Positions 13,154 to 35,203 of a stretch of 64,000 nucleotides of DNA are shown here, piece after piece. Source of the stretch: Rhodopirellula sp. (GTDB lineage: Bacteria; Planctomycetota; Planctomycetia; Pirellulales; Pirellulaceae); assembly GCA_002701385.1 (NCBI GenBank), contig NZVD01000007.1, forward strand, positions 20,466-84,465, given 5' to 3'. How positions within the stretch are numbered: the first letter of the stretch is position 1; the number at the start of each line of letters is the position of its first letter. The notes beneath the pieces are model-generated. The model made no database searches. It had not been told where the DNA came from and saw nothing but the letters and a program-made list of their open reading frames with translations. Both the position numbers and the translations under genes were made by a program.

Positions 13154-13182
13154 TTGGCGAATTGGCTATTTTCTAGGATAAT
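13154..13182 (+). promoter_or_regulatory. Sigma-70-type promoter for the DoxX-oxidoreductase pair
   Basis: TTGGCG and GATAAT are separated by exactly 17 nt, matching the -35/-10 consensus at 4/6 and 5/6 positions. Transcription would begin near 13189, about 56 nt ahead of the DoxX ATG. Confidence 0.65.
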
Positions 13183-13244
13183 AAGAGTTTAACGATTATG
13201 CGATCAGGCCGGACACGACTTGTGGCTCCGGATTCAGATATAAA

Positions 13245-14201: not shown

Positions 14202-14220
14202 ATAAAAAGGAAAGTACGTC

Positions 14221-16017: not shown

Positions 16018-16045
16018 TCCGCCCCTTGCGGAAGAATGATATTAT

Positions 16046-16093
16046 CCCGCAGTGATACTTACTTAGAAGTTGAGTCACTGCGGGATTTTTTTT
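16046..16093 (+). terminator. Rho-independent terminator after the oxidoreductase
   Basis: A perfect 10-bp stem (CCCGCAGTGA / TCACTGCGGG) with a 19-nt loop is followed by A and eight T residues. It ends the DoxX-oxidoreductase unit and overlaps the 3' end of the convergent small membrane protein gene. Confidence 0.88.
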
Positions 16094-16463: not shown

Positions 16464-16482
16464 GTTGCCCTGATCTTTATGC

Positions 16483-17325: not shown

Positions 17326-17411
17326 TGGGTTCTCCTCGAGGGCGTAAGGTGGTTTAAGCTTGGCTACATGCCGCATTATACAACAATGACGAGCGGGTCA
17401 TAGTTGGGCCA

Positions 17412-19394
17412 TTAAATTCGATCTAACGAATCTATCCATTGAGCCAATGACTCTCTTAAGCTGTCCGTTAACTTACCGGGAGCTTCCAATTCTTGTTCGC
17501 TCACGGGGTACTTGGCATCCTTTAGTGCTTTCACTGCATTAGCAACAGCAGCACTGACAGGCGAGCCTTTGACCAGAATGGCGTGAAAGGCAACTCGCTC
17601 TGCAGGGTCGTTTGGAGCAATTCCTGCTCGTAATGGAAAGGGAGCGTCGATCGGGATAATACCACGGACTAAATCTCGATACGAGAACCCCAGAATCAGG
17701 GCCATTGCTCCTCCCGCCTGACGCCCTATGGCAACAATCCGATTACGGTCGATATTGTACGTGTTGATCACATTATCCATCGTTTTACGAATGAATTCGA
17801 TTTCGGTAGGTTGCCAGCGATTTTCATCCTCAGCTTTAGGGGCCAGCACAATTAGATGGTGTTTTGCAGCCAGCTTCTTCCATTGTTCCACGAGTACTTC
17901 GTCGTTGACATCTCCGGGAGCATGGAGCCAGACAATCAGTCCATGAGCAACATCGCTTCGGTAGTTGTCCGGTATGATAGCGTGGCAGTCGTTGGCTTCT
18001 TCTGGCAGTTTGATTTGAACAGTACCAGTTGCGAGGTTGTTGGCAGGTGCTGCGATGGATGGCGGACTGTGCCCATCGATTGATGGTGTGTCGAGAGGTA
18101 AAGGGCTCAGGGTGAGTTCCGTATTCATCTCCTGGCCATCTCGAAAGAAGGTGATGGTAATAACAGCCGACGGTTCAAAGTTCGCTAATTCCACTCTGAG
18201 TTGATTGTGATCCGCCACATCAGTTTGATTGAGAGAAGTAATTAAGTCCCCTGGCTTGATGGCAACCGTTGCAGCTGGACTGTTGGGGTAGACGTATCGA
18301 ACAAGTACGCCAGCCTCTCGGTGGTTTCTGTCCGGTAGTATGCCTAAGAATGGGTGTTCATACGGTTCTAGCGTTTCGGCTAATGTTAATTCCGTCATCG
18401 CAACGGTACCGTCGCGTTGATACTTGAGTGAAATGGTGTCGCCCGCGTAATGTGCACCCAAAATATGACGCAATTCAGATTGACGGGCAATCGGCTTGCC
18501 AGCCATCTCGATAAGAGTGTCTCCTTTTTTGAGTCCCGCATCATGAGCTGGCGATTTCGGTTGAACCGCTATAATCTCGGCCGGCAAGTCGTAGACGTTG
18601 CCCGACGTTAAGGAGACTCCGATGCGGCCAGGGTGTAGGTTTTCTCCCGCTTTAAGTTTCTCCAAATGAGGTTCTAGATCGGCTAGAGGAACGGCAAACC
18701 CAATTCCGGAGTCATACCATTCCGTGCCGTCGGATTGTCCGCCTTGTGGATGTGGAGTTAGAGGAGTTAATACGCCAAATACTCGCCCATGGATGTCAAT
18801 AAGAGGACCACCGTAATTTGCAGGAGAGATCTTGGCATCGGTTTGGATGGCCTTGCCCCAAATGCGATTGGAGGCACTTATAATACCAACACTTTGGTTT
18901 GAGATGTTACGAGAAAACGTCTTCCCTAAAGCGATAGCCCATTGGCCAACGGTGATTTCTTCTCGAGGTACGAAAGGTAGAATTGGGTACGACTCGTCGG
19001 TGTTGACTTTGAGTAGCGTTAAATTGCGGCTGTGATCATGAGCAATGATTTTTGCGGCTGCACGTTTGCCGCTGGGAGTGGTGGCCAGAATCGAAGTAAG
19101 GCTATCTCTTACCATGGTCGAACTGGTAAGGACATATCCATCGGAAGAAACCGCTAAACCGGAGATGGGACCAATTTCCTGAGACTCCAGGCCGCCCACT
19201 AATTCCAATTGTACAACGCTCGGACTAGCCTTTTCGACCGCAGCCTGAAGAGCCTTTTCTTCACGCTCTAGTAATTCATCTTGTGCGGCGGCTGACGAAA
19301 TCCAGCCGAGAGACGAGAGCAGTAGCAGGAATGTCAGTTTCTTGGTGACCAATATTTTGCTAGTTAGGCGAGGTGAGAGAGGTACGGGTTGCAT
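17412..19394 (-). CDS. HtrA-like pseudoprotease with two PDZ domains and esterase-like C-terminus
   Basis: This 660-residue exported protein has a signal peptide (about residues 18-38, ending SSAAAQ), a trypsin-like domain (45-245), two PDZ domains (about 255-340 and 345-430) and an alpha/beta-hydrolase-like domain (465-660). In the trypsin-like domain the His, Asp and Ser positions read T93 (LTSSTMV), N124 (HSRNLTLL) and Y194 (PANYGGPL), so the triad is gone while the fold motifs remain. In the hydrolase-like part the nucleophile elbow is GRQAGG, with Gln at position 559 where Ser is expected. Both halves therefore look non-catalytic. It is the last gene of the long minus-strand cluster, 7 nt after the second pseudoprotease gene. 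Confidence 0.85.
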   Translation of the reverse strand: MQPVPLSPRLTSKILVTKKLTFLLLLSSLGWISSAAAQDELLEREEKALQAAVEKASPSVVQLELVGGLESQEIGPISGLAVSSDGYVLTSSTMVRDSLTSILATTPSGKRAAAKIIAHDHSRNLTLLKVNTDESYPILPFVPREEITVGQWAIALGKTFSRNISNQSVGIISASNRIWGKAIQTDAKISPANYGGPLIDIHGRVFGVLTPLTPHPQGGQSDGTEWYDSGIGFAVPLADLEPHLEKLKAGENLHPGRIGVSLTSGNVYDLPAEIIAVQPKSPAHDAGLKKGDTLIEMAGKPIARQSELRHILGAHYAGDTISLKYQRDGTVAMTELTLAETLEPYEHPFLGILPDRNHREAGVLVRYVYPNSPAATVAIKPGDLITSLNQTDVADHNQLRVELANFEPSAVITITFFRDGQEMNTELTLSPLPLDTPSIDGHSPPSIAAPANNLATGTVQIKLPEEANDCHAIIPDNYRSDVAHGLIVWLHAPGDVNDEVLVEQWKKLAAKHHLIVLAPKAEDENRWQPTEIEFIRKTMDNVINTYNIDRNRIVAIGRQAGGAMALILGFSYRDLVRGIIPIDAPFPLRAGIAPNDPAERVAFHAILVKGSPVSAAVANAVKALKDAKYPVSEQELEAPGKLTDSLRESLAQWIDSLDRI

Positions 19395-19401
19395 TGGTGA
19401 T

Positions 19402-20403
19402 CTACTTCCCCTGTAGGACGAATTCGATTAACTCGTCATCACGCTGAATGACGAGAGTGACATCATCGATCTGGTCAATAAGTTCTAGTTCGCTACGCAG
19501 TGTTGAGCAGGAGTCTATTCGGCGATCGTTGAGATACAGGATTAGGTCGTCTGGGCGAATGCCATTCTTCTCAGCCTCGGAATCTGCAGTGACCGAGTCA
19601 ATAAAAGGGGGCGTCTTTGCCAGCACATCTGGTACTAATTGAAGACCGAGTGTCTTAAGTGTATGTGGGATTTCCGGACGAATGGCGTCTTCATCGAGAC
19701 TTCGCGGTCGGGTTCGTCCTGCTAGAATGTCTTTAACAGCTGAAGTAAGCTCCTGAATCGGTACGGCGTAATTTAACCAAGTGCCATTCTGGGAATTGCG
19801 AAGCTCTTTTCCCAGCAAACCTGCCAACTCACCATTTCTGTTCGTTAAAGCACCTCCGGCTGCTCCAGGGTTATTAGTAATGGCATCCAGCACGTAGACA
19901 GACCCCTTGTAAGTTGTTTTAAATGCTCCTCGCCGCGCATTGAGTGGAGTTGTGGCTGCAACGATTCCATGCAGCACACTGTTTGGTTCATCGCCGGTTG
20001 CAATTTTGAATAGATTACTGAATGTGAGGATACGAGCTCCGGGGGCAACGGATACGGCATCTCCAAGCTTGAACGCATCGAGACCATCGGTGTCAATTTT
20101 TAAGACGGCGATTTCCAACCGAGGATCGGCTCCGATGATTTCACCCTGGAACTTTCGGCCGTCATCTAACGTGACAGTGATGTAGTCCGTGTCCAGAACG
20201 TAGCTCCAGACTGTCAGGATATGCCCTTCTCCACTGATCAAAAAACCGCTTTGATACCCTTCCAGGCCGCGGATTCCTCCAGCACCATAGATTTTGACCA
20301 TCTTCGGCTGGACGCTTGCTGAAACGACGGAAAAATCAGCCGCTTGCGTCGTTGGTGCTGTGCTAATGCCGACCAGCAATAAAACGAATAGGAAGTGTTT
20401 CAT
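19402..20403 (-). CDS. HtrA-like pseudoprotease with one PDZ domain
   Basis: This 333-residue exported protein has a signal peptide (residues 1-21, KHFLFVLLLVGIS...QAA), a trypsin-like domain and one C-terminal PDZ domain (about 245-333, with GIRPDDLILYLNDRRI). The catalytic positions are all changed: Ser67 for His (LTVWSYV), Glu97 for Asp (DPRLEIAVLKI) and Ala182 for Ser (NPGAAGGAL). The surrounding motifs are well kept, so the fold is probably intact and selected for. Its start codon overlaps the stop of the active protease gene (TAATG), so the two are translationally coupled. A regulatory or substrate-binding role beside the active paralogue is inferred. Confidence 0.87.
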   Translation of the reverse strand: MKHFLFVLLLVGISTAPTTQAADFSVVSASVQPKMVKIYGAGGIRGLEGYQSGFLISGEGHILTVWSYVLDTDYITVTLDDGRKFQGEIIGADPRLEIAVLKIDTDGLDAFKLGDAVSVAPGARILTFSNLFKIATGDEPNSVLHGIVAATTPLNARRGAFKTTYKGSVYVLDAITNNPGAAGGALTNRNGELAGLLGKELRNSQNGTWLNYAVPIQELTSAVKDILAGRTRPRSLDEDAIRPEIPHTLKTLGLQLVPDVLAKTPPFIDSVTADSEAEKNGIRPDDLILYLNDRRIDSCSTLRSELELIDQIDDVTLVIQRDDELIEFVLQGK

Positions 20404-22199
20404 TATTCCGTTCTTTCCCCGATATTGAACTCGAAGTCTTCGATATTTAACTCTCCATAAACGGTGTCACCGTGATGAATTTCCAGTCGACGAGGTAGCA
20501 TGCGGCCATTTACTGATTCGTATTCAGAGAAGTAAATTTCACATGGATCCACACCCAAATCCGGGAACATTTCCATTGAGGTAAGTAAACCGGTGGATGG
20601 TGAGAAATAGAAACGACACTCAATAACACTATGAGTGGCTACCAGGACATCTTGTTTTTCTTTGTGTTTGGGAGTTGGCATGGAGCCCAGATAGTAAACA
20701 TCTCCGAACTGCGTAATGCCAGTTTGTTGAATGTGCTTCCATAAGTGCAAGGCAACTAACAGGCCACCGCTGCCCCGTGGAGACTCCTGTTGCCCCAGGT
20801 CATTATCAAGTACAGCAAAAGCCTTTCCCTGCGGTAATTCAGCATCCACTCGAGTTTTCGTGAGCGTGATCGTGGCGTCACCCAGATTTCCAAGTTTTCC
20901 ACGGAGTACCCAGTCACCTTTTGCCGTTTCGGGTTTTGTCTGTTGTGTATAGGCGTCCCAGACGCGGTTTTGGTTCAGGCGATTGAAATGGAAGTTCGCA
21001 AACCCCCGGCGTGCGGCGTAGAAAGGCTGGACAACGGCTGGGAGTTCAGGCGAAGCCGGTTTGGCCGGCTTGGGTTGCATCGGTTCCTCGGGCGTTTCAG
21101 GGTCCTCGCTATCAGGCATGGGGGCAGGACGTTGCTGTCGATTGGGCTGGACTCGAGCAAGCAATTCTTCCGGGGAATGCACTCCGGTTAACCTGACAAA
21201 GGTATCAATGCGTTCGCCTTCATGGAGGAAGGATAACGGGACTCGCCATCCTCGTGGGTAGATTCCCAATACGTTTTTGAATCCATTGACGGTTGTTATG
21301 TTCCGGCCACCAAAAGACAAAAGCTGATCACCATAGCGCAGTCCACGGCGAAATGCATCCGAGGATTCAGAAATGTTGGTGACGATGACACCGCCCTTCT
21401 CATCGGTCGAAACGGTTGCTCCGAGTGTAGCATGGTCGAGGATACGTCCACTGTGTAGAAATCCCATGAAATGCTTGATTTGATTGATTGATATGGCATA
21501 CCCAACACCTACATTGACTCGTCCTCGTTTTTCAAACGAGCCGCGGCCATTGATTCCGATCAGGTCACCGTTTTCGTTGTATAAGGGCCCCCCCGAATTT
21601 CCAGGATTGATGGAGGCATCAGTTTGAATGCAATCCGCATACTCCAGCAGCGTCCCTGCAGGATATTGGTACCTATGCACACCGGACACGATGCCATAGG
21701 TGACGGTTGGATTGAAATCCGTGGCCAGTAAAAAAGGATTGCCGACGGCAAAGCACCAGTCACCAACTCGAACTTGATCACTATCCTCTAATTTGGCGTA
21801 GGGGAAGTCATCACGTCCCAGGAGCTTGATTAAGGCCACATCTCCGACCGGGTCGATGCTTACGAGGATAGCATCGTAGAGTTCGCCGTCATTGATGGCG
21901 CATTTCATCGCCGTGCCTGCAGGCTGAACAACATGGTAGTTGCTCAAGGCATATCCGTCAGGGCTGATGAGCACTCCGGAGCCTCCCCCTTTACCTTCAT
22001 TGGCAAACACCATGACGGTTGAAGCACTAGCTTTTTTGATAGCTGCGACTCGCTTTGCTTGAGACGCAAGTACATCTGCGGGCACTTCCAGTTGCTGGGC
22101 GGACACCATAGTGGACAGAAGTGTCAACCCACATAACGTTGCCAATTGCCGCAAGTATCTGTGCAATATTACCCGGGCTCTTTTTTGTGTTTTCATCAT
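20403..22199 (-). CDS. HtrA/DegP-like serine protease with PDZ and extra C-terminal domain
   Basis: This 598-residue periplasmic protease has a signal peptide (about residues 15-34), a trypsin-like domain with an intact triad His89 (LSNYHVV), Asp120 (VGDVALIKL) and Ser202 (NPGNSGGPL), and one PDZ domain (about 255-340). After a proline-rich linker (about 350-390, PMPDSEDPETPEEP) comes a 200-residue C-terminal domain ending GELNIEDFEFN, which is not part of ordinary DegP and looks beta-rich, perhaps like lipoprotein-binding LolA/outer-membrane sorting folds. Its start overlaps the stop of the NPCBM gene (ATGATGA). It is the only likely active member of the three tandem HtrA-like proteins. Confidence 0.9.
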   Translation of the reverse strand: MMKTQKRARVILHRYLRQLATLCGLTLLSTMVSAQQLEVPADVLASQAKRVAAIKKASASTVMVFANEGKGGGSGVLISPDGYALSNYHVVQPAGTAMKCAINDGELYDAILVSIDPVGDVALIKLLGRDDFPYAKLEDSDQVRVGDWCFAVGNPFLLATDFNPTVTYGIVSGVHRYQYPAGTLLEYADCIQTDASINPGNSGGPLYNENGDLIGINGRGSFEKRGRVNVGVGYAISINQIKHFMGFLHSGRILDHATLGATVSTDEKGGVIVTNISESSDAFRRGLRYGDQLLSFGGRNITTVNGFKNVLGIYPRGWRVPLSFLHEGERIDTFVRLTGVHSPEELLARVQPNRQQRPAPMPDSEDPETPEEPMQPKPAKPASPELPAVVQPFYAARRGFANFHFNRLNQNRVWDAYTQQTKPETAKGDWVLRGKLGNLGDATITLTKTRVDAELPQGKAFAVLDNDLGQQESPRGSGGLLVALHLWKHIQQTGITQFGDVYYLGSMPTPKHKEKQDVLVATHSVIECRFYFSPSTGLLTSMEMFPDLGVDPCEIYFSEYESVNGRMLPRRLEIHHGDTVYGELNIEDFEFNIGERTE

Positions 22200-23407
22200 T
22201 TTATGAGTTTTCCATCACCCAGGTTAAGCAGGTCACCAATGTCTAGGTTTTTTCCATAATCTACGGTAATTGAAAGTCTGCGAACGCCTGTGATATCCAG
22301 ATCCAAGACTCGAATATCCTCAGGGTCAGTCAAGAAGTCCTTAAACAGCTGTCGATTGTCTCCAAGGATGATTAGTTCTAAATGTCCCCGCCCTTTGGAT
22401 TCTTCTGCCAAGCCAGCCGTCAAATGCAGGTGGTTAAACTCGTCCGTAAGGCGATAGACCAATTCAGTTTTACTACGCAGTGATAGCCCTTTACTAAACG
22501 TCTGTTCGCCAATAATCAACTCGCCACCATTGGCATTACGGTCTTTTACAGGAGCGTATAGTTGGGTTAGGCGATTGCGAATGAGCCTGCCGGTCAAATA
22601 CGGAGTCCACTCAGCCCTCTCGGGTTCTAAGTCACTAAGGTAGGCGATATTAGAACTAGCAAATCGGAGTTGTTGGATGTTCTCTAAGCCCAGAGTGATC
22701 GAGTCTCCTAAACCCGTTTCAAATGACAGTGAGTTTTCTTCAGATTTCCATGTCAATCGGCGGGCTTGCCACAGGTTTCCTTGCAAGTCGTGGATTTGGC
22801 AAATTGTTTTTGCGACTTCGAGCGAACCTGGTTTCAATAGTTTGATACCGGCAAGTTTGGAGAGTTCAACAGGTATTCGGTCACCGTCAAAATTGAATGT
22901 GACCGCCTGCTCGTCGACTCGCTCAATAATACCTTCTAATTCGTCAATTGCGCCACTGGGACGCAATACAATCAGAACGTCGCCAGCAGAATCCGCTTCG
23001 AGAATGGCGTTGTAATCCTGCTGAGCCTCTTCCGTTAGTTGGCGGAACTGGATACTGGAGATACTATCGCTTTTGAGACGGTAACTTAATTCCTCTGCAA
23101 TTGTTGCCCGGGCATTGGTTGCTGTAGCAAGCACGTTGCTGGCATGGATTGTACTGCCATCGTGGAGTTGGATAGCGAACTTGTTGTTGGGAGGTACCTC
23201 TGCATTAGCATCGCTCAGGTTGATCGTCTGCAATTGCTCGATCGCTAACGTCTTAGTTTGACCATCCGAGGTGAATTTAAGATTGTCGTCACTAAGTTCG
23301 GTTACCTCTCCGACCAATTGACTGCCGTCAATAAGAGTGACTTCACTCTGTGGTTCGGCAAAAACCAAAGTTGTTGCCAAAATTACAATTGTATTCCAAA
23401 TCTGCAC
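22196..23407 (-). CDS. Exported NPCBM/NEW2 domain protein
   Basis: This 403-residue protein has a signal peptide (residues 1-18), a middle region of repeated short beta segments that read like small SH3- or Sm-like units (VTLIDGSQLVGEV, AIQLHDGSTIHAS, LEGIIERVDEQAVTFNF), and a C-terminal NPCBM-type carbohydrate-binding domain (about 280-403). The NPCBM part shows FSKGLSLRSKTELVY, ELIILGDNRQLF and LDITGVRRLSITVDYG. Planctomycetes often pair NPCBM with PDZ or trypsin-like domains, which fits the three protease-type genes that follow, the first by a 4-nt overlap. It probably binds envelope polysaccharide or glycoprotein. Function in this cluster is inferred. Confidence 0.82.
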   Translation of the reverse strand: MQIWNTIVILATTLVFAEPQSEVTLIDGSQLVGEVTELSDDNLKFTSDGQTKTLAIEQLQTINLSDANAEVPPNNKFAIQLHDGSTIHASNVLATATNARATIAEELSYRLKSDSISSIQFRQLTEEAQQDYNAILEADSAGDVLIVLRPSGAIDELEGIIERVDEQAVTFNFDGDRIPVELSKLAGIKLLKPGSLEVAKTICQIHDLQGNLWQARRLTWKSEENSLSFETGLGDSITLGLENIQQLRFASSNIAYLSDLEPERAEWTPYLTGRLIRNRLTQLYAPVKDRNANGGELIIGEQTFSKGLSLRSKTELVYRLTDEFNHLHLTAGLAEESKGRGHLELIILGDNRQLFKDFLTDPEDIRVLDLDITGVRRLSITVDYGKNLDIGDLLNLGDGKLIK

Positions 23408-23453: not shown

Positions 23454-24479
23454 CTAGCTTCCGTCACGAGCCAGTTTTCGAAAGTACTCTTCAATGACTT
23501 CACGATAATGAGCGGGCAATTCTTTGCTGATTTGCTGTAACGCTTTTTGTCGTTCTTTGGGAGGCAATGCCCCCCAGTCGTCCGCCTCACCGTGATTGCG
23601 GCGGTCTACATTGCCTGGGCCACTTCCACCAAGAGGATTGGAGTCCTGAGCTGGTGAACTTGGATTAAGGCTGCCTTGCCCCTGGCCGCTTTGCTGCTGT
23701 TGTTGCTGCTGTTGTTCCAACTCTTCAATCATTTTGTCCAATTTGGCGATGACGTCATCTTCTTCTTTTCGCACGCGAGTACCTGCGCGGCCCAGTTTAA
23801 GGCGACGTTGAATGTCAGACATTAGCCGAGCGACTTCATCCAAGGAGTCCTTTTTTAGCGGGGCGATGTCCGCTTTCATTAGGTTGGCAAGTGTCGAGTA
23901 TCGACGAGGAATGTCCGCTTCGTTTTCAAGCAGCAATTCGATGGATGCAAGGCACTTATCTTTGGCCAGAATACGATGATATCCAGTTGCCTGGTAGAAC
24001 AACAAGGTAGCGGGATCTGCGACCTGTTGAGGCCGGATGCCCTCAAGGACTTTTAAACATTCGTCTTGAAGCTGGCTTTGAGCTAACCAGCGAGCATAGT
24101 AGAGCTTGAGGTTGTTAATCACGAATGGAGCGAGATCATCTTTACTTAAAATCGCCGGTATTATGTGAGCTTCGGTTGCTGGGGTAGTTTCCAGTTTGGC
24201 GACTAACGTGGCAACATCCCGATTTGTCAGGATTAAGCTGTTAACGAGTTGGTCTAGCAAGAGGGATTGGTCCCCGGATGCTAGCGGAGTATCCCAAAGG
24301 ATGCCGATTTGAAGGCGGACCGTTTCGTCTGCGTCTTGGTTCTTGAGGTGATCTTCCAGTTGCGCCCGAATTTGACCAGCATCAGGAATGTTCCATGATG
24401 CTCGTTTTTCTAAATCGTCAGCAGCAAAAACTGTTGCTGTCAGCATTAACAATACGCAGATGGTTTTTGTAATATGCAT
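23454..24479 (-). CDS. Secreted helical protein with poly-Gln linker, unknown
   Basis: I do not recognise a named family. The start is moved from 24560 to ATG 24479, which has CGGAG ahead, lies 16 nt after the previous stop and opens a signal peptide (HITKTICVLLMLTATVFA). The next 200 residues look alpha-helical and TPR-like (LLFYQATGYHRILAKDKCLASIELL), then come a coiled-coil segment with eight consecutive Gln, a Gly/Ser/Pro-rich stretch and a conserved-looking C-terminal element around WGALPPKERQKALQQISKEL followed by HYREVIEEYFRKLA. The terminal element reads like a motif seen at the ends of other planctomycete proteins of this cluster type. It lies between the poly-Gln protein and the NPCBM gene. 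Confidence 0.7.
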   Translation of the reverse strand: MHITKTICVLLMLTATVFAADDLEKRASWNIPDAGQIRAQLEDHLKNQDADETVRLQIGILWDTPLASGDQSLLLDQLVNSLILTNRDVATLVAKLETTPATEAHIIPAILSKDDLAPFVINNLKLYYARWLAQSQLQDECLKVLEGIRPQQVADPATLLFYQATGYHRILAKDKCLASIELLLENEADIPRRYSTLANLMKADIAPLKKDSLDEVARLMSDIQRRLKLGRAGTRVRKEEDDVIAKLDKMIEELEQQQQQQQQSGQGQGSLNPSSPAQDSNPLGGSGPGNVDRRNHGEADDWGALPPKERQKALQQISKELPAHYREVIEEYFRKLARDGS

Positions 24480-24495
24480 GTAAACTCCGATAGGC

Positions 24496-26352
24496 TTACT
24501 GGTTTTTCCCCAGTACGATGTCACGAGTGATTCGCTGCAAATCCCGTTGTGTCTGACCAAGCTTTTGCAATGCTTCCACTAAGTCAGTGTCCTTGGCTTG
24601 ACCGGTTGGATCATCGATGTCATCCAGCAAACGTGAATAGCGTTGAGTCCGTTTGTTGATTCGCAATTGAAGCGAGCGAATCATTCGTAGCTCAGACAGT
24701 TGGTCGACCAGAGGCTTTTCCTGCTGTTGCTGCTGCTGTTGCTGCTGTTGCTGCTGTTGCTGCTGGTCCATCAACTCCTGTTGAGCCGCTTGAAGGGCTT
24801 CAATCATTTCTTCAATGGACTGGATGATGTCTTCCTCAATGCTAACGGTCAGACGGTCAACCTTCGTTTGGCTAAGACGGTCAGAAACCTGATCCATGTC
24901 TTCGATCATAATCTTGACTGTTTCTGGGAAGGCGATGGAAGATCCTTCTTCTAAGAGGAGTGTCAATACTTTGTCAGCTTCCAGTGAGATCTTACGTTGC
25001 TGGAATCCTAGCTTGTTCGATTCGATCTGAACTTCTCGACCTCGGTCATCTTCTGGGATTTTGGCTAACTGCAATGTGCCTTCATAAACTTTAAGTTCCA
25101 TTTCCAGCATTTTTCGAAAGCGACCTTCGAGCAAGGCCAGCATCCGTTCCAGCTCTTCTTCACGCAGTTGTCGCAAGATCTCTTCAAGCTGAGCCTTGGC
25201 CTCTACTAATTTCTGTTTGGCCGCTTCCTGAGCTTCGATCGACTGTTCTCGTCGAGCCTGTTCCAGTTCCAGCTGAGCCTGTTTCATTTGCTGCTGAGCC
25301 TCTTCCAGCTTTTTACGTGCTGGGTTTTGGTCTTGCTGCTGATCATTTTGGCTTTGCTGTCCGGGTTCAGGTGATCCACCTTGCATGGGTTGGCCACCCT
25401 CCATTGGTTGGCCACCTTCCATCGGCTCGCCACCCTCCATTGGTTTGCCACCTTCCATTGGTTTGCCACCTTCACTGGGCTTGGCGGACATGTCCCCAGG
25501 CTCTCCCGAATCCCCAGGCTCTTTAGGATCCTTGGGGTTTTCGTCGGGATTACCATCTTCACCAGATTCTTCACCTAGATCGTCACCAGGGTCATTGGGA
25601 TCGGATTCATCGCTGGGGTTTTCTTCGTCGGAATTGCCATCGTTGTTATCTGATGGGTTACCACTGTTCTCCCCCCCGTTGTTTTCAGAGTTTTCGCCGC
25701 TTTCAGAGTTCGCTTGACCTCCCTCTTCGTTTGCTTTGATTTTTTCTGCTAAATCTCTGGTCTCATCGGAGATGCGATCCTGTTCTTTGGCAATTCTTTC
25801 AGGATCTGCCCCTCCCTCATTCTGTCCCTGAATGGCTCGCTGCTGTCGAAGTAATCGCTCGACGTCACGAATATACTCTCGGTACCTTGCCTTTTCGGTT
25901 TTTAGGCGGTCTCCGTCATCTTCGGTAATCAGCAATTCCAGAATTTTCGCCAGTTGCACCTGAACGTCTGCCTGTTCATCGACGGCACGTTTGAGTTGAT
26001 CTTGATTCAACAAACGGACAATGGATTGCATTTGCGTGGTCGTTAAATTGTCCCTTGATTGCTTGTAGGCATCACGAAGTAAAGCCGCTCGCTTCGGGTT
26101 GTTTGCGGATTCGAACTCAGCCATTCGCAAGATTAATTCTTCGATGCGTTTGTACTTTTCAGCAATTTTACTTTGCTTAAGAGCGAGGTCCGTTGTGCCT
26201 GATGGGGAATCATCAGCTGTGGACTCAGTGGCATCGGTAGCAGGATCTGCTTCAGTGGCAACCTGCGCGAAAAGTGTCATTGGCATGAACACGAATGCCA
26301 GAACCAGCATTGGAAGGCGGACCATTGATGTGCTTGAACGTAAGCTATTCAT
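24496..26352 (-). CDS. Secreted coiled-coil protein with acidic, GG-x-PME and poly-Gln repeats
   Basis: This 618-residue protein has no named family. A signal peptide covers about residues 8-30 (LPMLVLAFVFMPMTLFAQ). Long helical segments are broken by an Asp/Glu/Asn/Gly/Pro-rich stretch (about 205-290), a run of six-residue repeats of the type GGKPME (about 290-325), a Gln/Glu/Arg-rich coiled coil (about 335-420) and a run of 15 Gln (530-544). The C-terminus is again a coiled coil. Low-complexity helical proteins of this kind often sit between DUF4175-like and VWA genes in proteobacteria and planctomycetes. The gene starts after a 225-nt gap and may have its own promoter. A structural or scaffold role outside the cytoplasm is inferred. 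Confidence 0.72.
   Translation of the reverse strand: MNSLRSSTSMVRLPMLVLAFVFMPMTLFAQVATEADPATDATESTADDSPSGTTDLALKQSKIAEKYKRIEELILRMAEFESANNPKRAALLRDAYKQSRDNLTTTQMQSIVRLLNQDQLKRAVDEQADVQVQLAKILELLITEDDGDRLKTEKARYREYIRDVERLLRQQRAIQGQNEGGADPERIAKEQDRISDETRDLAEKIKANEEGGQANSESGENSENNGGENSGNPSDNNDGNSDEENPSDESDPNDPGDDLGEESGEDGNPDENPKDPKEPGDSGEPGDMSAKPSEGGKPMEGGKPMEGGEPMEGGQPMEGGQPMQGGSPEPGQQSQNDQQQDQNPARKKLEEAQQQMKQAQLELEQARREQSIEAQEAAKQKLVEAKAQLEEILRQLREEELERMLALLEGRFRKMLEMELKVYEGTLQLAKIPEDDRGREVQIESNKLGFQQRKISLEADKVLTLLLEEGSSIAFPETVKIMIEDMDQVSDRLSQTKVDRLTVSIEEDIIQSIEEMIEALQAAQQELMDQQQQQQQQQQQQQQQEKPLVDQLSELRMIRSLQLRINKRTQRYSRLLDDIDDPTGQAKDTDLVEALQKLGQTQRDLQRITRDIVLGKNQ
24721..24765 (-). repeat. 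CAG/CAA triplet run coding 15 Gln
   Basis: Fifteen glutamine codons in a row, mostly in the order CAG CAG CAA, form a near 9-nt period. Such a run may change length by slippage without breaking the frame. Confidence 0.9.
25381..25480 (-). repeat. 18-nt tandem repeat coding GG-(K/E/Q)-PME units
   Basis: About five imperfect 18-nt units (plus strand core CCACCYTCCATYGG) encode GGKPME, GGKPME, GGEPME, GGQPME and GGQPMQ in the secreted coiled-coil protein. Divergence is mostly at third positions and at the variable third residue. Confidence 0.85.
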
Positions 26353-26577: not shown

Positions 26578-29154
26578 TTATTTTAACAGATCAAGGACCT
26601 GCTTCTTCCGTTCGTCTTTGGTCTTTTCACTGATTTCTTCCTGATCGTTGATCAAATCACGGATTAAATCAATTAATTCGTTATACGTTTCCAATTCCAG
26701 CATGTTGTCCAAAACCGCGCTCATTTGGACTAAGATCACATCAGCTTGAGTTAATACCTCTACCGCGTGATCTTCGTTGGCCACCCCTTGTTCAATGGCC
26801 TTCTCCATCGCCAGCAATCGGTCATCCAGCGTGGGAAACTCGGCCGAGCAGACATGTTTGAGAGGGTCCGAAATCAGTTCTTTAAGTCGGTCTTTTCGTT
26901 CTTGCGTGTCGACTCGATTATTGATTAGCTGCAGGCGAATGTCGTCAAACGAGACAGCCACGCCGAGCGATTCCTGATTAGACTTTTGGCTTTGAACGAT
27001 GGCACGTTGGATTCTCAATAGCCGCAGACTTTCTTCCCGGCGTTGCTTTTCTTCCGGGGTCAGTGTAGGTTCATCGCCCTGCTTGTCTTCTGGTTCACTA
27101 CCTGCATCACTGCCACTAGTACCCTGCACGCTATCGAGAACTTGTGCCAGCGAATCGCGCATTCCCTGCACTTCTGCAAGGATTAGTTCATAGCGTTGTC
27201 GTAGTGATAGCTCCTGACGTTCGAGGATGGCCAGCAGTTGTTGGTCAGTGACTACATCAAGTGTGAACTGACTGCTGCTGCCAATGTTGGGATCGCCTTC
27301 AAGGTCGTATTTGTCGCTCGCTTGAATCGACAACGTAATGGTCGATTCCGGTTCTAATTCGGTGGACTCATCTTCAGCCCGCTGGGCTCGCAGGTCGAGT
27401 GGCGTTTCCAATTCCTCACCGTTTTGAATTGGAAGCGGGAATGTCATAGATTCCCCTTCCTGAGGCTTCACGTCGAACCAACTGGATGACACTCCGTAAT
27501 CATCGGTAACCTTACCTTTGATCGGTATGATTGCATTCGGCGTGATCGCTGACCCGATTCCTTGCAAGCTGATGTCGAGGTTGGGAGGTTGGTCTAATAA
27601 AGCACCGATCGACACTAGGAATGGTTCGGTCGATATGATGGCATCCTGATCGTAAAGAGAGATCGTCAAGGCCACATCGTTGTATAGCGGAGTCACTGGA
27701 AAAAGGAGCGTTTGTTTAGAAACAGCCAGGCTGGTCAAGACTCTTTCGCCGTCCGGAGTAAATCCTTCGATGACCGAATCAGATGTGGTCGGCTCTCCTT
27801 GTTCGTCCACACTGCAGAGTTCCCCGTCCTCGACGGAGAATCTTAGTATTTCGCCATCCAGATTTGTTAGCCCTTGCAACAGCTCTTTGTGAATCGGTCC
27901 CGGCTCAGTTTCCGGGTCAGCAGAAGCCAGCATGACGGCCAGACCCATAGAGGTCTTTGTGCGACTGTCTGGCAATTGCAGATAAGCCACTCGGTACTGA
28001 GCAGTCAGCGGGTCGCTGATATGGATCTGTTCAAGGGACTTGTTGGCATGCAGTCGTATCGTGAGGTCTGAACCAAACGGCAAAGATGTACGTCCGGCGA
28101 TCCAGGGCTGGTCGTTAAAAGGGAGTTTTTCGGTGTATTCAGGGTATTGGTAGTCTAGAGTTACATCCTGGATCTTTGGGCTGTCCACCACATCGATGTA
28201 ATAAGGGCCGATACGGTGATCGTTGCCTACGATTTCAAACTCAAGGCTGCCGGTAATGCCATTCAGAGGATTGTCATCCAGCACAAAATACTGGTCACCA
28301 CCCCCTGCTCCCCCCTCTTTATTGAGATTGCGGCGTCCGGTCACACCATCTTCGGTTTCGTAATACAGGACACAGGATCCGGGAATCTCTTTTTCACCAT
28401 TTGCATTGACCAATAAACGTAAAGTCGCTCCGGTAGCTACTTTTACTCGATCCTGGACGAATTGTTTTTGTTCGTCGATGCCGAAAGTGAAACCAGTGAA
28501 GTTTTCTCTGACTACAGTGAGCCCGATAATCTCGATTTGGGTATTACGTTCCCATTTGTCGCCCGAAAGCATGTAAAGTCGTTTGAAGGCCAAATTTGCC
28601 ATGGAAGAGTTCATGGCACTAAACAAAATGACAGATAGTAAGAGAATGGTTGCCAACGTAATACGTTTGGTTAGCAAGCCGGAATTAAACACTTCATTGA
28701 CATTAATTGCCCCAATGGACTCCAATGCCATTTGTGAAGTCTCCGAAAGCATTTCGGAACTGTACTGCTCTTGTTCACTCGGTTCCTGACGTTCCTTCAG
28801 CGTAACGGTCGTTACCAGAGCATCCTGAAGGTCGTCAAATCGTCGTTCAAGCAATAGGGCCAATGATCGGTCATTGAACTGAACAAAGGCTCGTTGGCCA
28901 ACGAAGCGGAAGAGGATATAGCAGAGGATGCCTCCTACGATCGCCAGAAGAATTCCGCGTGCTCCCTGAGCGAGTTCATTGGCTCCGACTAGTACAGGCA
29001 GATAATCAACAGCTAGTCCCAGCCAGAACATAACTCCCAGCCAAACGATGGCCAGACTGATGCCTTCAATCCAGACGAACAATCGAATCCGTGAACGGAG
29101 TCGTTGTAAAGTCCGTTGGATTTGAGGATCGATTTGTTTTTTAATCTGGTCCAT
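26578..29154 (-). CDS. Large membrane protein, DUF4175-like, unknown
   Basis: This 858-residue protein has two hydrophobic helices near the N-terminus (about residues 30-52 and 66-85) and a third near 165-185 (ITLATILLLSVILFSA), then a long extracytoplasmic region of beta-rich, Ig-like character (VTLDYQYPEYTEKLPF, ITPNAIIPIKGKVTDDYGVSSSWF) and a C-terminal coiled coil of about 200 residues. This order, three N-terminal helices followed by Ig-like and coiled-coil parts, resembles the DUF4175 proteins found beside MoxR/VWA genes, but the similarity was judged by eye. It starts 27 nt after the VWA/GATase-like gene, so it belongs to the same transcript. Confidence 0.65.
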   Translation of the reverse strand: MDQIKKQIDPQIQRTLQRLRSRIRLFVWIEGISLAIVWLGVMFWLGLAVDYLPVLVGANELAQGARGILLAIVGGILCYILFRFVGQRAFVQFNDRSLALLLERRFDDLQDALVTTVTLKERQEPSEQEQYSSEMLSETSQMALESIGAINVNEVFNSGLLTKRITLATILLLSVILFSAMNSSMANLAFKRLYMLSGDKWERNTQIEIIGLTVVRENFTGFTFGIDEQKQFVQDRVKVATGATLRLLVNANGEKEIPGSCVLYYETEDGVTGRRNLNKEGGAGGGDQYFVLDDNPLNGITGSLEFEIVGNDHRIGPYYIDVVDSPKIQDVTLDYQYPEYTEKLPFNDQPWIAGRTSLPFGSDLTIRLHANKSLEQIHISDPLTAQYRVAYLQLPDSRTKTSMGLAVMLASADPETEPGPIHKELLQGLTNLDGEILRFSVEDGELCSVDEQGEPTTSDSVIEGFTPDGERVLTSLAVSKQTLLFPVTPLYNDVALTISLYDQDAIISTEPFLVSIGALLDQPPNLDISLQGIGSAITPNAIIPIKGKVTDDYGVSSSWFDVKPQEGESMTFPLPIQNGEELETPLDLRAQRAEDESTELEPESTITLSIQASDKYDLEGDPNIGSSSQFTLDVVTDQQLLAILERQELSLRQRYELILAEVQGMRDSLAQVLDSVQGTSGSDAGSEPEDKQGDEPTLTPEEKQRREESLRLLRIQRAIVQSQKSNQESLGVAVSFDDIRLQLINNRVDTQERKDRLKELISDPLKHVCSAEFPTLDDRLLAMEKAIEQGVANEDHAVEVLTQADVILVQMSAVLDNMLELETYNELIDLIRDLINDQEEISEKTKDERKKQVLDLLK

Positions 29155-29181: not shown

Positions 29182-31956
29182 TTAAGCTAATTTACACAAT
29201 CTTCGAATGACCCATTCAATGCAAAGGATGCCGCTGATGATGGCGATTAGCCATGCCATGAGCATCTCTTCAAAGTCTTTGTCTGGTGTGCCTGGAAGTT
29301 CCGTTTCTTGGTCCCGTGGCACAATGGTTGTTGCAAGCCCCTGCGTTTCTTCATTATTAGACGCACTGGTCGTACTGGAAATTCCCACAAAATAGGTTCC
29401 ATTGGTTTGACTGGAGGCGTTCGATAGTAAGGCGTCGTTTCGACGAGGGTTCTCGATTTCTAATTGAGGGACACGGACTCGAACATCACGAGTCAATAAA
29501 TCAGTAGAACCGGGGAGCGGAACTTCCACTCGATAATCGCCTTCCTGGGTGGCAATGAACTGACCGGTGTACATTCCCTCTCGTGTGCCATCCGCAAGTA
29601 GCTTCAGTTGGATTGGGTCCCGAGTGCCATCGGGTTGGACGAGAACAGCGTCGACAGCATCGGCGGAGAGTGGATCATGTTGGGCGTCAGTCAGTACAGC
29701 CTGGATCGTAACGTGCTCGCCAAGAAAAGTTCTGTCTTTGTCCACAAGTAGGACACCTCGGCTTGAGTCCCGTAATAACCGACCTTGGGAGACCCAGCGA
29801 ATAAGTTTAGTGTAGTATTTTTCAAAGTAAGCTTCTTCAATGCTGCGGAGACGCCACATTTCTCCGCTGGCCTGGAAGAAGACTCGCCCTGCTCCATAAA
29901 AATGCCCTGCCATATAAATCGGGAGTTCATCATCGATGGCAGTGTCGGGGTCAGAGAATCGGCTATAGACCTTGGCTCCAGGCTTCGGATCCTTGGCCTT
30001 GTAGTAGCCATAAACTCCGTCAAACGAAGCCCAAGCCTGTTCGCTTCCCAATTGACTGTTGTCAAGCCATAGAAACTCGGCACTGAGACCATCATCGGAA
30101 AACTGGATTGGCCAAGCGGTGTCACCGCCAAATCGTCCGAGACTCAGAGTCACTCCCCCCTGATTATAGAAAACGACCGGGTAAAGGTTTTTGATCAGGT
30201 CGATACCTCGGCGGCGCCCTCGTCGCATGCGAGACCATTCAGGCGTGAAGACCGGGCCGGCCACGACAAACAGCCCCCCTGCTTCTTCAGAGACCCAACG
30301 TTCGATAAGTTCAATTTGTCCGTCATCCAGTGCTTCCCAGTCCGGATCAAAGGCGACAATGGCATCGTATTCAAAGAGCTCTTCGTCGAGTTGCGGGAAG
30401 TCATAGATGACTTCGTCGGCTTCCTGGCTAATGGTGTCTTCGGCGGTCTGTAGATAGACGTGCACTTCAACTTCGTCGTCACGATAGAGCATGTTTCGCA
30501 GGAACCGATATTCACGAGTGGGGCCGCCGGCTACTAGCAGGACTTTCGTGCGACGGTCGACAATTTCGACGGTCGCAGAGCGTTGGTTGTCACGATCGTT
30601 TTTGTCATCGGCTGGGACTTGGATCCGGATGACGTAATCTCGTTTCCCCTGGGAATTTTCGTCGGGTTCTAATTCAAATTCGACCGGTCGTGTTTCTCCA
30701 TCTTCTGCGAGGTCGAGTTGCAATTGATCTTCGATTTTGTCCTGAGAAGTATCGTCAGCAGGCGTATTCACTGGTCGACTGATTAAATCAACAGGAACAG
30801 AACGGTTGTCGATTCCATAGGCCTGAACGTAGCCAGTAATTTTGAAGCTGTCACCGGGGTAAACCCGTTCAGGCGCCTCAATGTCGACGACGCGAATGTT
30901 CTTGGCCTGCTGGTCACTCCCGATTCCCACAGGATAAAGCGGAATGTTATACGTGCGAGCCGATCGGACGGCGACTTCCAGGTCTTCACCGGAATTACTT
31001 CGTCCGTCGGTATAAATCACAATGCCCGCGATCGGCCCACCTCGTTCTTTGTTGACCAGGAATTGGACGGCATCCCCAAGACGCGTCTTGCTTCCTCGTG
31101 GAAGCAAGGCAGTATTCCACTCGATTTCAGGCAGTTCCATCGAATCGGATTCCGCGGTATCGTCGGTTGAAAAGTCAGGTGTGGTAATCCCCAGCGTATC
31201 TGTAAAGGTGAGTTGTGGATGCCGCAGGTTTCCAGCAGCAATGACGATCACTCCGGCAAGCACAAAAACCATGCTCGCTAGCAGAGACCATGATGAAGCC
31301 TCTGGCTGATCCTTTTTTCGACCTTTGGTGAGGTAAAAGAGAAGTGCCACTGCCGCGGCTACGATCAACCCGATACCAATTTTGACCAAATCCCGGACAG
31401 CACCGATAGCAGCATCGGAGAGTTGAGAGTCATTGCCCGAATCGAGTCGTGCAATTCTAGGAAACGTCGCTATCTCCACCGGTCGGCTCTCTTCACTAAA
31501 ACGATGCACGATGACATCGTGTTGTTGCCGAAGTGTTTCTAGAGTGGTTCCCTGATTGAATTCATTGATGACTTGTGTAATTCGTGCCAGCCGCTGCTCG
31601 TCTGAGTCGTCAGTGAGTCCCATGCTTTGACTGGTGTCCACCAGAACGTGGACTCGGGAATTTTTAATGATTGTTTCCTCGGTCACTCGCTCCAGATTGA
31701 AGAAGTAGAAGAGTATCCCAAGTAAGGCGGCACAACGTAATACAATCAACGTGATGGAAGTGGATTTGCGAAGCTCCTGTGTGTCCCGTTTGTAAATCCA
31801 AACGACGTAACCTGCAAAGGCAGCACAAATCAATACAAGCAAAAGCCAGTGCCAGGCTTCAGTCAGAGAATTGACGCGAGTGAATTGGAATTGCGTTTGC
31901 TGTACTTGAGCGAGGTGGGAAGCTCGGGTTGCCTGTTGGAAAAGCTCGGTAATCAT
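29182..31956 (-). CDS. Membrane VWA protein with glutamine amidotransferase-like domain
   Basis: This 924-residue protein has N-terminal membrane helices (about residues 35-55 and 70-85), a split von Willebrand A region with an intact MIDAS motif DTSQSMG (about 107-113), a further pair of helices (about 190-245) inserted in that domain, and VWA-end motifs IAGIVIYTDGRSNSG and PLYPVGIGS. A middle domain starting TKVLLVAGGPTREYRF and containing YDAIVAFDPDWEAL looks like a class I glutamine amidotransferase-like fold, as in other members, without an obvious catalytic Cys. A C-terminal helix (about 900-918) anchors the end. Its ATG overlaps the stop of the BatA-type gene (ATGA). Confidence 0.83.
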   Translation of the reverse strand: MITELFQQATRASHLAQVQQTQFQFTRVNSLTEAWHWLLLVLICAAFAGYVVWIYKRDTQELRKSTSITLIVLRCAALLGILFYFFNLERVTEETIIKNSRVHVLVDTSQSMGLTDDSDEQRLARITQVINEFNQGTTLETLRQQHDVIVHRFSEESRPVEIATFPRIARLDSGNDSQLSDAAIGAVRDLVKIGIGLIVAAAVALLFYLTKGRKKDQPEASSWSLLASMVFVLAGVIVIAAGNLRHPQLTFTDTLGITTPDFSTDDTAESDSMELPEIEWNTALLPRGSKTRLGDAVQFLVNKERGGPIAGIVIYTDGRSNSGEDLEVAVRSARTYNIPLYPVGIGSDQQAKNIRVVDIEAPERVYPGDSFKITGYVQAYGIDNRSVPVDLISRPVNTPADDTSQDKIEDQLQLDLAEDGETRPVEFELEPDENSQGKRDYVIRIQVPADDKNDRDNQRSATVEIVDRRTKVLLVAGGPTREYRFLRNMLYRDDEVEVHVYLQTAEDTISQEADEVIYDFPQLDEELFEYDAIVAFDPDWEALDDGQIELIERWVSEEAGGLFVVAGPVFTPEWSRMRRGRRRGIDLIKNLYPVVFYNQGGVTLSLGRFGGDTAWPIQFSDDGLSAEFLWLDNSQLGSEQAWASFDGVYGYYKAKDPKPGAKVYSRFSDPDTAIDDELPIYMAGHFYGAGRVFFQASGEMWRLRSIEEAYFEKYYTKLIRWVSQGRLLRDSSRGVLLVDKDRTFLGEHVTIQAVLTDAQHDPLSADAVDAVLVQPDGTRDPIQLKLLADGTREGMYTGQFIATQEGDYRVEVPLPGSTDLLTRDVRVRVPQLEIENPRRNDALLSNASSQTNGTYFVGISSTTSASNNEETQGLATTIVPRDQETELPGTPDKDFEEMLMAWLIAIISGILCIEWVIRRLCKLA

Positions 31957-34292
31957 GTTGCTACACCTCCTCCTTTGGGAGTGTGATAGCTCAATAGATA
32001 GGCCAGGAATTGTTCCCCGACCAGTCCGGCAAGTAAGATCATCATGAGCCAGAAGCTGGCGGTTCCACCAACGTTTTGAGAAGCACTGCCCTGAAATGCA
32101 TCGAGGTCAGATAACCGCACGGCAATGGGTTCCAGTGAAGCGATGAGTTGTTCCTTTTCGATTCGGGCGGTATCCCCTTCTCTGGCATTGACGTTCAGAG
32201 CATATCGTGAGTCTTCATAGGCTCCGTCGGTTCGTTGGGTGACGACATCGTAAATACCACTTGTCGTCGTCCCGGTGGTCGTCCTTGAAGGTGTTGCATC
32301 ACCGCCGAAAGTGGCATTTATGACAGGCGATTGTGGGTCAGACTGTACAGCTTCTAGTTTTTCTATCGCGCGGGATGCCGGATCCTCTCCAGGTGTGAAA
32401 ATAGTAACCGTGTTGTTATATTGCTGGAGATCCAGAGCGATATTCAGTTCCGCGCCGACCGGCCACCGATCCAGAATTCGCTGACTGGAGGTAAGGTGAG
32501 CATGGAGTTTCAGAAGGACGACCACGAAACTGGGGTCCTGCCCCCAATTGTTCCACTCAGGATTTAATGTGGATGTGAAACAGACCACTCGGCCATTGCC
32601 AAATTGCTGTTCAACGGCAAAGGGTTGCTGATTATGAAGTTTGCAAATGACACGCACCGTGGAGTCTTCAGGTGGAGCCCATTGCGGAGTTACCTGCATG
32701 TATTGGTCGATTGAGACTCGTCGAATGAGTGGGTTTCGTTCGTTGAGAAAGAAATCAAATACCGGATGGTCGATGATGTCCAAATGAGGAGTGGCTTCAT
32801 CGAGTGGCGGTACATTAATAATTGAACCGGCAAATTCCACCGGCATGAGCCCTTGTCCACTTCGATAGAGTTGATCATTGAAGAACTTAACATCGACCTG
32901 ACTTCCGGCAAACCAGGCCAGACCTCCGCCGTGAGTGACATATTGCTCGAGATTGGTAATGGCGTCCGGGTCGAGACGACCAATATCCATCAGATAGATA
33001 GCACTGTATTTGGAAAGGGATTCGGCTGGCGTGTCTCGGAGGAATTCTACAGGTTGGACATCCGGGATGATTCCCGTGTTAGTCAACTGGCTGGGGCGAA
33101 AGACGCTATTGATGAAGTATTGATTACGTTGGTCAGACGTTCCATCCACGAGAAGGACGTGGTCCCCTTCCGGAAAATCAAGCACGGTGAAACGGGAATT
33201 GTCCGCCAGGATGGAGTCTTCAGGTAACTCGGCATCCACCACATGTTTGCCGGCTTCCGGAAAGAACACCTGGACACGTTTCGTTGCGGTGACGCCGGGC
33301 TCGATGTTGTCAAAAACGACGACCGGCAATTCTTCAATTTGTCCAAGTACCTCGGCTGGTTCGGCAGCCTGAACTGTTCCTTGGGCATGGAAAATAGAAC
33401 GCATTTTGACCTGAACGTTGGTTGCTGGTTCGGAACCATAATTCTTAACTCGCAGGTGCATGAACAGAGGCACGCCTGCAGCCCGAGTGTCGTCGGCAGG
33501 TAAGAGTTCCGTAATCGCTAAATTTGTATTGCCGTTTTCTACGCAATCAACCAAATGAATTTCTTCACTTTGACTGCTGAGATTGGCTAGAGCTTCTTTA
33601 ATTTCAGCAGGGTTCTCCCAATCGTTCTGTCTGAAATCTGAAATCAAGTAGACGTTGCGATGTTGGTCAGGGTTTCTTGCAACTAAAGTCTGTAACAGTT
33701 GCAGAGCGGGCAAAGGGCCGTTGTCCGCCTGGGTAAGGATCATGTCTTTTTGACGGTCAGATAAACGCTCAGGGAAATCAGAATCGACAAAGGCACCTGA
33801 AAAGTCGGCGACATTGTTCATAGTGACTTCAGCGATTTCCTCAACCAGAGCGGTAGCCCCGCTGGCTTTCGAGAATCGCAGAAGCGTGAAGCGTTGATTA
33901 CTTCGTTCGCTGGCCTGAGAACTAATACGCCCAACGATCGTTAATGCCCGATCGAAAGCTGTATTTCCATTGGCCAATTCCCCCATAGAGTAACTGTCAT
34001 CCAGCAATAGGAAATGGTGAGTTTCTTTGGCGCCAAAGCGTGTTAGCCAGCTCTTTCCTGGATCCCATTGGGCGAGCATCGCTACGATGAGCCCAATGAT
34101 GAATACTCGGAGGAGCAGCAGTAATAGCTGCTTGAGCCATACCCAACGTCGGTGTTTTTTATAACTAGCCAGCAAGAACTCCATTGCCGCCCATTCGACG
34201 CGCTTATGACGCATCATGTTGATCAGGTGGATCAACAATGGCAACAGGGCGAGTAAAAAGCCCCACGTTAATGCTTGATAGGTGAAGTTCAT
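31953..34292 (-). CDS. BatA-type N-terminal membrane protein with VWA domain
   Basis: This 779-residue protein begins with the BatA/aerotolerance N-terminal signature (FLLALLPLLIHLINMMRHKRVEW and a second helix near residues 55-75). A VWA domain follows with the intact MIDAS motif LDDSYSMG (about 98-105), later beta-rich segments, a GATase-like stretch (YSAIYLMDIGRLDP, VTHGGGLAWFAG) and a final helix (about 750-770). DUF58 lies 14 nt upstream and the second VWA protein overlaps by 4 nt. In other bacteria the MoxR-DUF58-VWA set acts as a chaperone-like or metal-dependent assembly machine in the envelope; the client here is unknown. Confidence 0.86.
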   Translation of the reverse strand: MNFTYQALTWGFLLALLPLLIHLINMMRHKRVEWAAMEFLLASYKKHRRWVWLKQLLLLLLRVFIIGLIVAMLAQWDPGKSWLTRFGAKETHHFLLLDDSYSMGELANGNTAFDRALTIVGRISSQASERSNQRFTLLRFSKASGATALVEEIAEVTMNNVADFSGAFVDSDFPERLSDRQKDMILTQADNGPLPALQLLQTLVARNPDQHRNVYLISDFRQNDWENPAEIKEALANLSSQSEEIHLVDCVENGNTNLAITELLPADDTRAAGVPLFMHLRVKNYGSEPATNVQVKMRSIFHAQGTVQAAEPAEVLGQIEELPVVVFDNIEPGVTATKRVQVFFPEAGKHVVDAELPEDSILADNSRFTVLDFPEGDHVLLVDGTSDQRNQYFINSVFRPSQLTNTGIIPDVQPVEFLRDTPAESLSKYSAIYLMDIGRLDPDAITNLEQYVTHGGGLAWFAGSQVDVKFFNDQLYRSGQGLMPVEFAGSIINVPPLDEATPHLDIIDHPVFDFFLNERNPLIRRVSIDQYMQVTPQWAPPEDSTVRVICKLHNQQPFAVEQQFGNGRVVCFTSTLNPEWNNWGQDPSFVVVLLKLHAHLTSSQRILDRWPVGAELNIALDLQQYNNTVTIFTPGEDPASRAIEKLEAVQSDPQSPVINATFGGDATPSRTTTGTTTSGIYDVVTQRTDGAYEDSRYALNVNAREGDTARIEKEQLIASLEPIAVRLSDLDAFQGSASQNVGGTASFWLMMILLAGLVGEQFLAYLLSYHTPKGGGVAT

Positions 34293-34306: not shown

Positions 34307-35203
34307 CTAGTGGCGGACACTCATCCTGCTAGATAGGTATTTGGCCAGTACTGCGTCGAGTGGGTCGCTGGTGCGGATCAGAGCATAGTCGACCACGTTT
34401 TGTGCACATTGACGACGAACTTTATCGAGGAACTGATGGAGGGCTTCCAGATATCCTTCCCGGAGTGCTCGAGGATTGCAGTTTAGGAAATCTTCGCTTT
34501 CCAAACCGTCGAATCGCATTGGACCATTGAATTCAAAGTCAATTTCATCGTCATCCATGACGTGAAATACGAGTACGTCATGCCCGCGCTGACGTAATAA
34601 TTTCAAACCTTTCATGATCCCGTCAACGTCTCCGAGTAAGTCGGAAACGAGCACGATCATACCCCGTCTGGGGACGGTTTCCGTGATGCCTCGTAGAACT
34701 TCGTAGACATCGGTTTTGTCTTTGGGAGTTTCTATATTGAGGCTTTCGATGATCGAATGGATGTGGTTGCGTTTACTGCGAATCGGAATCCGCATGCGCA
34801 CCTTTTCATCGAAGGTGATGCAACCAACAGCATCTTGTTGTTGCAAGACCAGATAGGACAGGCTCGAAGCAATCGTAGCAGCATATTCATACTTACTCAG
34901 GTCACCATTGCCGTATTGCATGCTTTTAGAGACATCCACGACCATAGTGCATCGCAGATTTGTATCTTCTTCAAATTGCTTGACATACAAACGGTCCTGT
35001 CGAGCCCAGACTTTCCAGTCGACATGGCGCAGGTCATCCCCGGGCACGTACTCACGGTGCTGTAAGAATTCCACCGATTGGCCGAAATAAGGACTCCGAT
35101 GCATTCCGGAGAGAAACCCCTCGACAATGTGTCGTGCCCGTAGATCCAGCCTGGCAATCCGCTTGATTGCCTCAGGATGCAAAAATCTTTTGGAATCGGG
35201 CAT
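34307..35203 (-). CDS. DUF58 domain protein (MoxR partner)
   Basis: This 298-residue cytoplasmic protein carries the DUF58 signature [20 protein letters not shown] (about residues 47-66) and a VWA-like fold with the MIDAS motif VDVSKSM (about 90-96). No membrane span is visible. DUF58 proteins work with MoxR AAA+ ATPases. The start codon lies inside the 3' end of the MoxR gene (32-nt overlap), and the N-terminus [17 protein letters not shown] is normal for the family, so the overlap appears genuine. The BatA-type gene follows after 14 nt. Confidence 0.92.

Follow-up and report, generated by a model that had tools for sequence, protein, structure and literature searches.

Over much of the Planctomycetota, an operon that carries MoxR, DUF58, BatA and VWA genes ends in three genes for HtrA-type proteins, here named A, B and C, and the same arrangement is found in the 64,000-nt stretch of Rhodopirellula sp. 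DNA analysed here (the window). A has a complete His-Asp-Ser triad. B and C keep the fold and have lost all three catalytic residues. The proposal of the initial annotation that B and C are selected pseudoproteases is strongly supported, since neither gene has an intact triad in any relative, signs of decay are absent and dN/dS is low (0.02 for B, 0.10 for C). From sequence comparison, the three proteins probably constitute one HtrA system of the periplasm, with B and C as putative non-catalytic partners of A, acting as regulator or adaptor.

One intact and two degenerate HtrA proteins in one operon

The trio lies downstream of operon neighbours labelled U1 to U4, VWA1 and VWA2 (Table 1), and the MoxR AAA+ gene adjoins the DUF58, BatA and VWA genes on one strand. 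Translational coupling within the trio had been proposed from two junctions, ATGATGA and TAATG. TAATG is indeed the A-B junction. ATGATGA, however, belongs to U1 and A, with ATGA common to A and the preceding U1, and therefore does not lie between two proteases; B and C are separated by TAG, 7 nt and ATG. Immediately before MoxR, the window encodes a 1666-aa TPR and PQQ/BamB-like beta-propeller protein (36535-41535, minus strand), which is found at the same place in several relatives. Downstream of the trio (12028-17376) there are sugar-phosphate isomerase-like, small membrane protein, Gfo/Idh-like and DoxX-like genes, which adjoin the trio in the genus and in part of the family, frequently on the opposite strand.

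Table 1. Features of the operon and of its terminal HtrA-type genes (window coordinates).
Feature	Position	Strand	Description
Gene A	20406..22199	-	598 aa; active HtrA-like protease; H89/D120/S202, one PDZ, C-terminal all-beta domain
Gene B	19405..20403	-	333 aa; pseudoprotease, Ser67/Glu97/Ala182 at triad positions, one PDZ
Gene C	17415..19394	-	660 aa; pseudoprotease Thr93/Asn124/Tyr194, two PDZ, C-terminal dead esterase domain
C residues 445-660	17415..18062	-	alpha/beta-hydrolase, PHB depolymerase/feruloyl esterase-like; nucleophile Ser replaced by Gln559
A residues 395-598	20406..21017	-	conserved C-terminal domain, helix + ~11 antiparallel strands; DUF4292-like, sub-threshold
U1	22196..23407	-	NPCBM-domain protein; 4-nt overlap with A start (ATGATGA)
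U2	23454..24560	-	conserved operon gene; start codon uncertain
U3	24496..26352	-	conserved operon gene, coiled-coil/Gln-rich
U4	26578..29154	-	conserved membrane protein in operon; no Pfam match
VWA2	29182..31956	-	VWA domain in membrane protein
VWA1	31953..34292	-	membrane protein, BatA-type
DUF58/VWA protein	34307..35203	-	
MoxR AAA+ ATPase	35172..36236	-	

Alignment to the solved DegP, DegQ and HtrA structures placed the triad positions at H89, D120 and S202 in A, at S67, E97 and A182 in B and at T93, N124 and Y194 in C, in full agreement with the residues first read from the DNA. The three residues of A stand in classical motifs, with GNSGG followed by the PDZ domain, as in an S1C/HtrA peptidase. 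The corresponding stretches read VWSYV, RLEIA and PGAAGG in B and TSSTM, SRNLT and PANYGG in C, and neither protein thus has the triad of such a peptidase. The Pfam Trypsin_2 profile nevertheless scored above its cut-off in A, B and C (E 9e-31, 3e-19 and 4e-21), together with one, one and two PDZ domains respectively, which bears out the claim that fold and PDZ domains are retained in both paralogues. For C, the HtrA fold was also found in an AlphaFold model (pLDDT 91), which matched DegP (E 4e-31) and the DegP dodecamer in Foldseek; the model of A (pLDDT 87) matched DegP by fold, and the A sequence matched DegP at E 1e-39 with the triad present. Judged by eye from their signal peptides, A, B and C are predicted to reside outside the cytoplasmic membrane. 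Annotation of B and C as serine proteases is likely, and would be wrong.

A general loss of triads among the HtrA proteins of this genome was considered and rejected: it contains 14 Trypsin_2 domains above the cut-off, 12 of which, A included, have intact H/D/S, the two exceptions being B and C. Together with the phylum-wide pattern described below, this indicates that the loss in B and C is not due to chance. The same genome also has one 699-aa frame with two trypsin-like domains in tandem, one intact and the other degenerate (G000:C22:13532-14794; L006, L015).

A and C each carry an additional C-terminal domain. The last 216 residues of C, its C-terminal third, belong to the alpha/beta-hydrolases of the PHB-depolymerase/feruloyl-esterase type (NCBIfam E 2e-13; LC-Est1C in the PDB, E 2e-13 with the family profile). 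The nucleophile elbow reads GRQAGG, compared with GHSMGG or GLSAGG in the enzymes (GxSxGG); the window's protein has Gln559 in place of the serine and so lacks GxSxG, and the nucleophile Ser is present in only 3 of 78 aligned C sequences. With a pseudoprotease domain and an esterase domain without nucleophile, C contains two dead enzyme domains. The esterase domain is present in the window's class, and most C frames of the other classes sampled are too short to hold it. The C-terminal domain of A is conserved and is modelled as a single helix with about eleven strands. DUF4292 matched it in 10 of 21 members with a best E of 2e-4, the window's member lying below the cut-off; there was no PDB sequence match, and the Foldseek list for A was filled by DegP matches. 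A LolA/RseB-like fold would be our guess from the strand pattern.

Ancient triad loss under purifying selection

We compared 80 neighbourhoods from the same order with 40 from another order and other classes. A kept Ser202 in 119/119 sequences, the Asp in 118/118 and the His in 117/118, the single exception (L193) falling in a region with an alignment problem that is also unclear in a second member of the family (L195). At the nucleophile position of B, none of 121 sequences has Ser; in the same set, the His position is Ser in 104, and the Asp position is Glu in 71 and Asp in 20. C has no Ser at its nucleophile position either (0/113), and Tyr in 111 of 113; its His position is mostly Phe, Tyr or Trp and its Asp position Met or other residues. 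Every B or C retains at most one triad residue, so that relatives with intact triads, which would have spoken against selected pseudoproteases, are absent from the sample. The idea that the pattern is peculiar to the window's genome was rejected on the same data. Of 118 genomes searched in the order, about 100 have a B orthologue, with few exceptions at 43% identity or more. The former active site is bordered by conserved segments, 'GKELRNxxxNTWLNYAIP' in B and 'WYDSGIGFAVPL' in C, and the alignments show C to be shorter in the loop where A has 'RYQYPAG...'.

Gene order is conserved as well. U4-U3-U2-U1-A-B-C is kept in the order and mostly also in other classes (80 + 40 neighbourhoods), and MoxR-DUF58-BatA-VWA lies upstream of U4 in 11 of 20 genomes with longer DNA, other classes included, and partially in several more.

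Purifying selection, as anticipated, acts on both degenerate genes. Against the nearest relative (L046), on which the estimate rests because synonymous sites were saturated for the other congeners, dN/dS was 0.046 for A, 0.021 for B and 0.098 for C. Nor were the frameshifts found that would have signalled decay: the B matches listed are free of stops, the sole exception coming from a genome that is 67% complete. Tyr194 of C ranks 20th of 619 columns by conservation, indicating that the replacement itself is under constraint; the replacements at positions 97 and 182 of B are not conserved and vary. A tree made by a quick method (61 sequences, with four paralogues and DegP/Q/S of E. coli) recovered each of the three proteins as a single clade (support 100 for A, 99 for B and 100 for C), with the same inner groupings in each. 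B and C have long branches and group together with support 94, a grouping in which a long-branch effect is possible. Because each protein forms one clade, we conclude from the sequences that both catalytic losses, and all three genes, are older than the divergence of the sampled planctomycete lineages.

Partnership of the three proteins and competing readings

Profiles of A, B and C were run against 392 genomes spread over Planctomycetota. A was detected in 65, B in 66 and C in 67, with all three in 64 at those cut-offs; two further genomes (G171 and G241) have a weaker A adjoining B and C (L193, L195). The three genes occur together in about 66 genomes. G306 has A and C only. Partial sets in the draft genomes G012, G041, G046 and G048 probably stem from contig breaks. 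Among the best 80 matches of a named-genome scan, the titles are those of planctomycetes, two being just 'bacterium'. Some Pirellulaceae contain a second B-like copy of about 35% identity, and three of them (G019, G036 and G058) have the divergent set only. Across several genomes of the order, such second B-like genes (G026:C1:7965098, G060:C2:2092067, G054:C3:26515 and others) show about 30-36% identity; these copies are perhaps part of a second, divergent trio.

The three genes are kept even where they are far apart. The closed genome G222 has A at 4.06, B at 3.73 and C at 6.61 Mb, and a distance of 390 kb separates C from A-B in G420; linkage alone is therefore no explanation for the co-occurrence. 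In addition, A and B are fused in one uninterrupted frame at L179:7254-10388 (family f60) and at L192:4282-7236 and L194:9219-12554 (f103), with no signal-peptide-like stretch ahead of the B part, which suggests that the two proteins function next to each other. Co-occurrence and synteny indicate a shared pathway, not contact. Taken with retention after unlinking and with the natural fusions, co-occurrence makes a functional, and probably physical, partnership with A a well supported reading of the sequences. That the trio has been kept together since the cutting residues were lost suggests that the dead copies have a job.

We propose that A, B and C would be three obligate members of one system, made from the end of the MoxR-DUF58-BatA-VWA operon, with A as the sole catalytic subunit and thus the one that cuts. 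B and C would have lost catalysis early and been retained through selection for binding, the conserved Tyr probably filling the former active site of C, in which the His position is usually aromatic. Most likely B and C would associate with A, either in a mixed trimer or as trimers docked via PDZ domains, and would then control the activity of A or hand clients to it. In HtrA trimers, activity is relayed between neighbouring subunits, and control by two pseudo-subunits would for this reason be achieved most simply in a mixed trimer; the long branches of B and C and the shortened loop of C leave room for B and C to trimerise apart from A. The MoxR and VWA proteins would form an ATP-driven machine for envelope proteins, as may be suggested by MoxR/VWA pairs elsewhere, which assist specific complexes. 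The sequences themselves show the catalytic loss, its age, the selection on the genes and their co-retention with A. Physical association, for which the fusions are indirect evidence, the direction of control and a link to MoxR/VWA activity are what we infer for the system, and mixed trimer, allostery and client delivery are all conceivable mechanisms. A stricter version, in which an obligate mixed particle (for instance a trimer with a single active subunit and two dead ones) is activated by its pseudo-subunits and coupled to MoxR/VWA across the membrane, seems to us rather unlikely; if true, the particle would be a previously undescribed planctomycete envelope quality-control or sensing system.

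The strongest competitor, still clearly less probable than the partnership with A, is that B and C are only client receptors or decoys, which would capture unfolded or peptide ligands via PDZ domains and pseudo-active sites, then either pass them on to A or protect them from it, with neither mixed oligomers nor allostery. PDZ domains in all three proteins and the conserved segments beside the former active sites of B and C fit this reading, and nothing specific sets it apart from the main explanation; the A-B fusions, however, favour a close stoichiometric association. Somewhat less probable again, B and C might have no contact with A and serve as PDZ scaffolds for the MoxR/BatA/VWA machine in envelope protein assembly or sensing, A being a mere co-member of the pathway. 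The presence of MoxR, DUF58, BatA and VWA genes in the same operon across the phylum would agree with such scaffolds, as would a possible ligand binding by the dead esterase domain of C and the role of MoxR/VWA pairs as chaperones for specific protein complexes described in two papers (PMC9976466, PMC3893208). On the other side, A and B share one chain in the fusion proteins of two families, and A, B and C are adjacent, and are retained together when away from the operon. We consider new catalytic chemistry at the old site of B or C very improbable: Tyr194 of C is nearly invariant at the nucleophile position, but positions 93 and 124 of C vary freely or are hydrophobic and positions 97 and 182 of B vary, which leaves no conserved acid-base set. 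Finally, the disappearance of all catalytic residues from two of three genes might suggest decaying duplicates of A, a reading refuted to near certainty by strong purifying selection, one ancient origin each for B and C, open reading frames throughout, and their persistence in almost all of the ~66 genomes with A.

Relation to known systems and significance

Among the closest known systems, DegP, DegQ and DegS (S1C, HtrA) share the combination of trypsin-like and PDZ domains. Unlike in these proteases, none of the three catalytic residues remains in B or C, A combines a single PDZ with an additional C-terminal domain, and C has a dead esterase domain. In Arabidopsis Deg5/Deg8, different HtrA paralogues form one particle, which offers a model for a mixed A/B/C trimer; both of its subunits are regarded as proteases, whereas at most one of the three cuts here. 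The beta chain of hepatocyte growth factor is a trypsin-fold pseudoprotease reused for binding, with Tyr at the nucleophile position as in C, but it is an animal secreted ligand without PDZ, and its Tyr is of unrelated origin.

An active and a degenerate HtrA protein also share one cluster in MamE/MamO of magnetotactic bacteria. MamO is needed for MamE-dependent proteolysis with its own triad dispensable, and such pseudoproteases arose independently in three magnetotactic groups (PMC4794232). The dependence of MamE on MamO is the measured precedent for the role proposed here for B and C. In contrast to that system, the planctomycete trio has two pseudoproteases instead of one, PDZ domains in B and C and a dead esterase in C, where the MamO system has a TauE transporter, as well as a MoxR/VWA operon and conservation over much of a phylum. 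Its proteins are not assigned to either family by the NCBIfam equivalog profiles, scoring at most 60 bits for MamO and at most 134 bits for MamE against a cut-off of 800. The upstream half of the operon, with MoxR, DUF58, BatA and VWA, resembles the MoxR-VWA (BatA/DUF58) chaperone systems, from which it differs by the HtrA trio and U1-U4 at its end; the papers that we found describe no HtrA trio of this kind. A literature search on planctomycete pseudoproteases or on HtrA with MoxR returned nothing relevant, and HtrA, PDZ and MoxR are absent from the main text of a Planctopirus limnophila transposon paper.

HtrA pseudoprotease partners are already known from magnetosomes; in the planctomycetes, one live and two dead members are kept over much of a phylum, a specific Tyr has become fixed where the nucleophile was lost, and the live member is naturally fused with one of the dead ones in some genomes. 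The trio is a natural system in which to test how pseudoenzymes control active paralogues, and a first handle on a planctomycete MoxR/VWA operon without described function.
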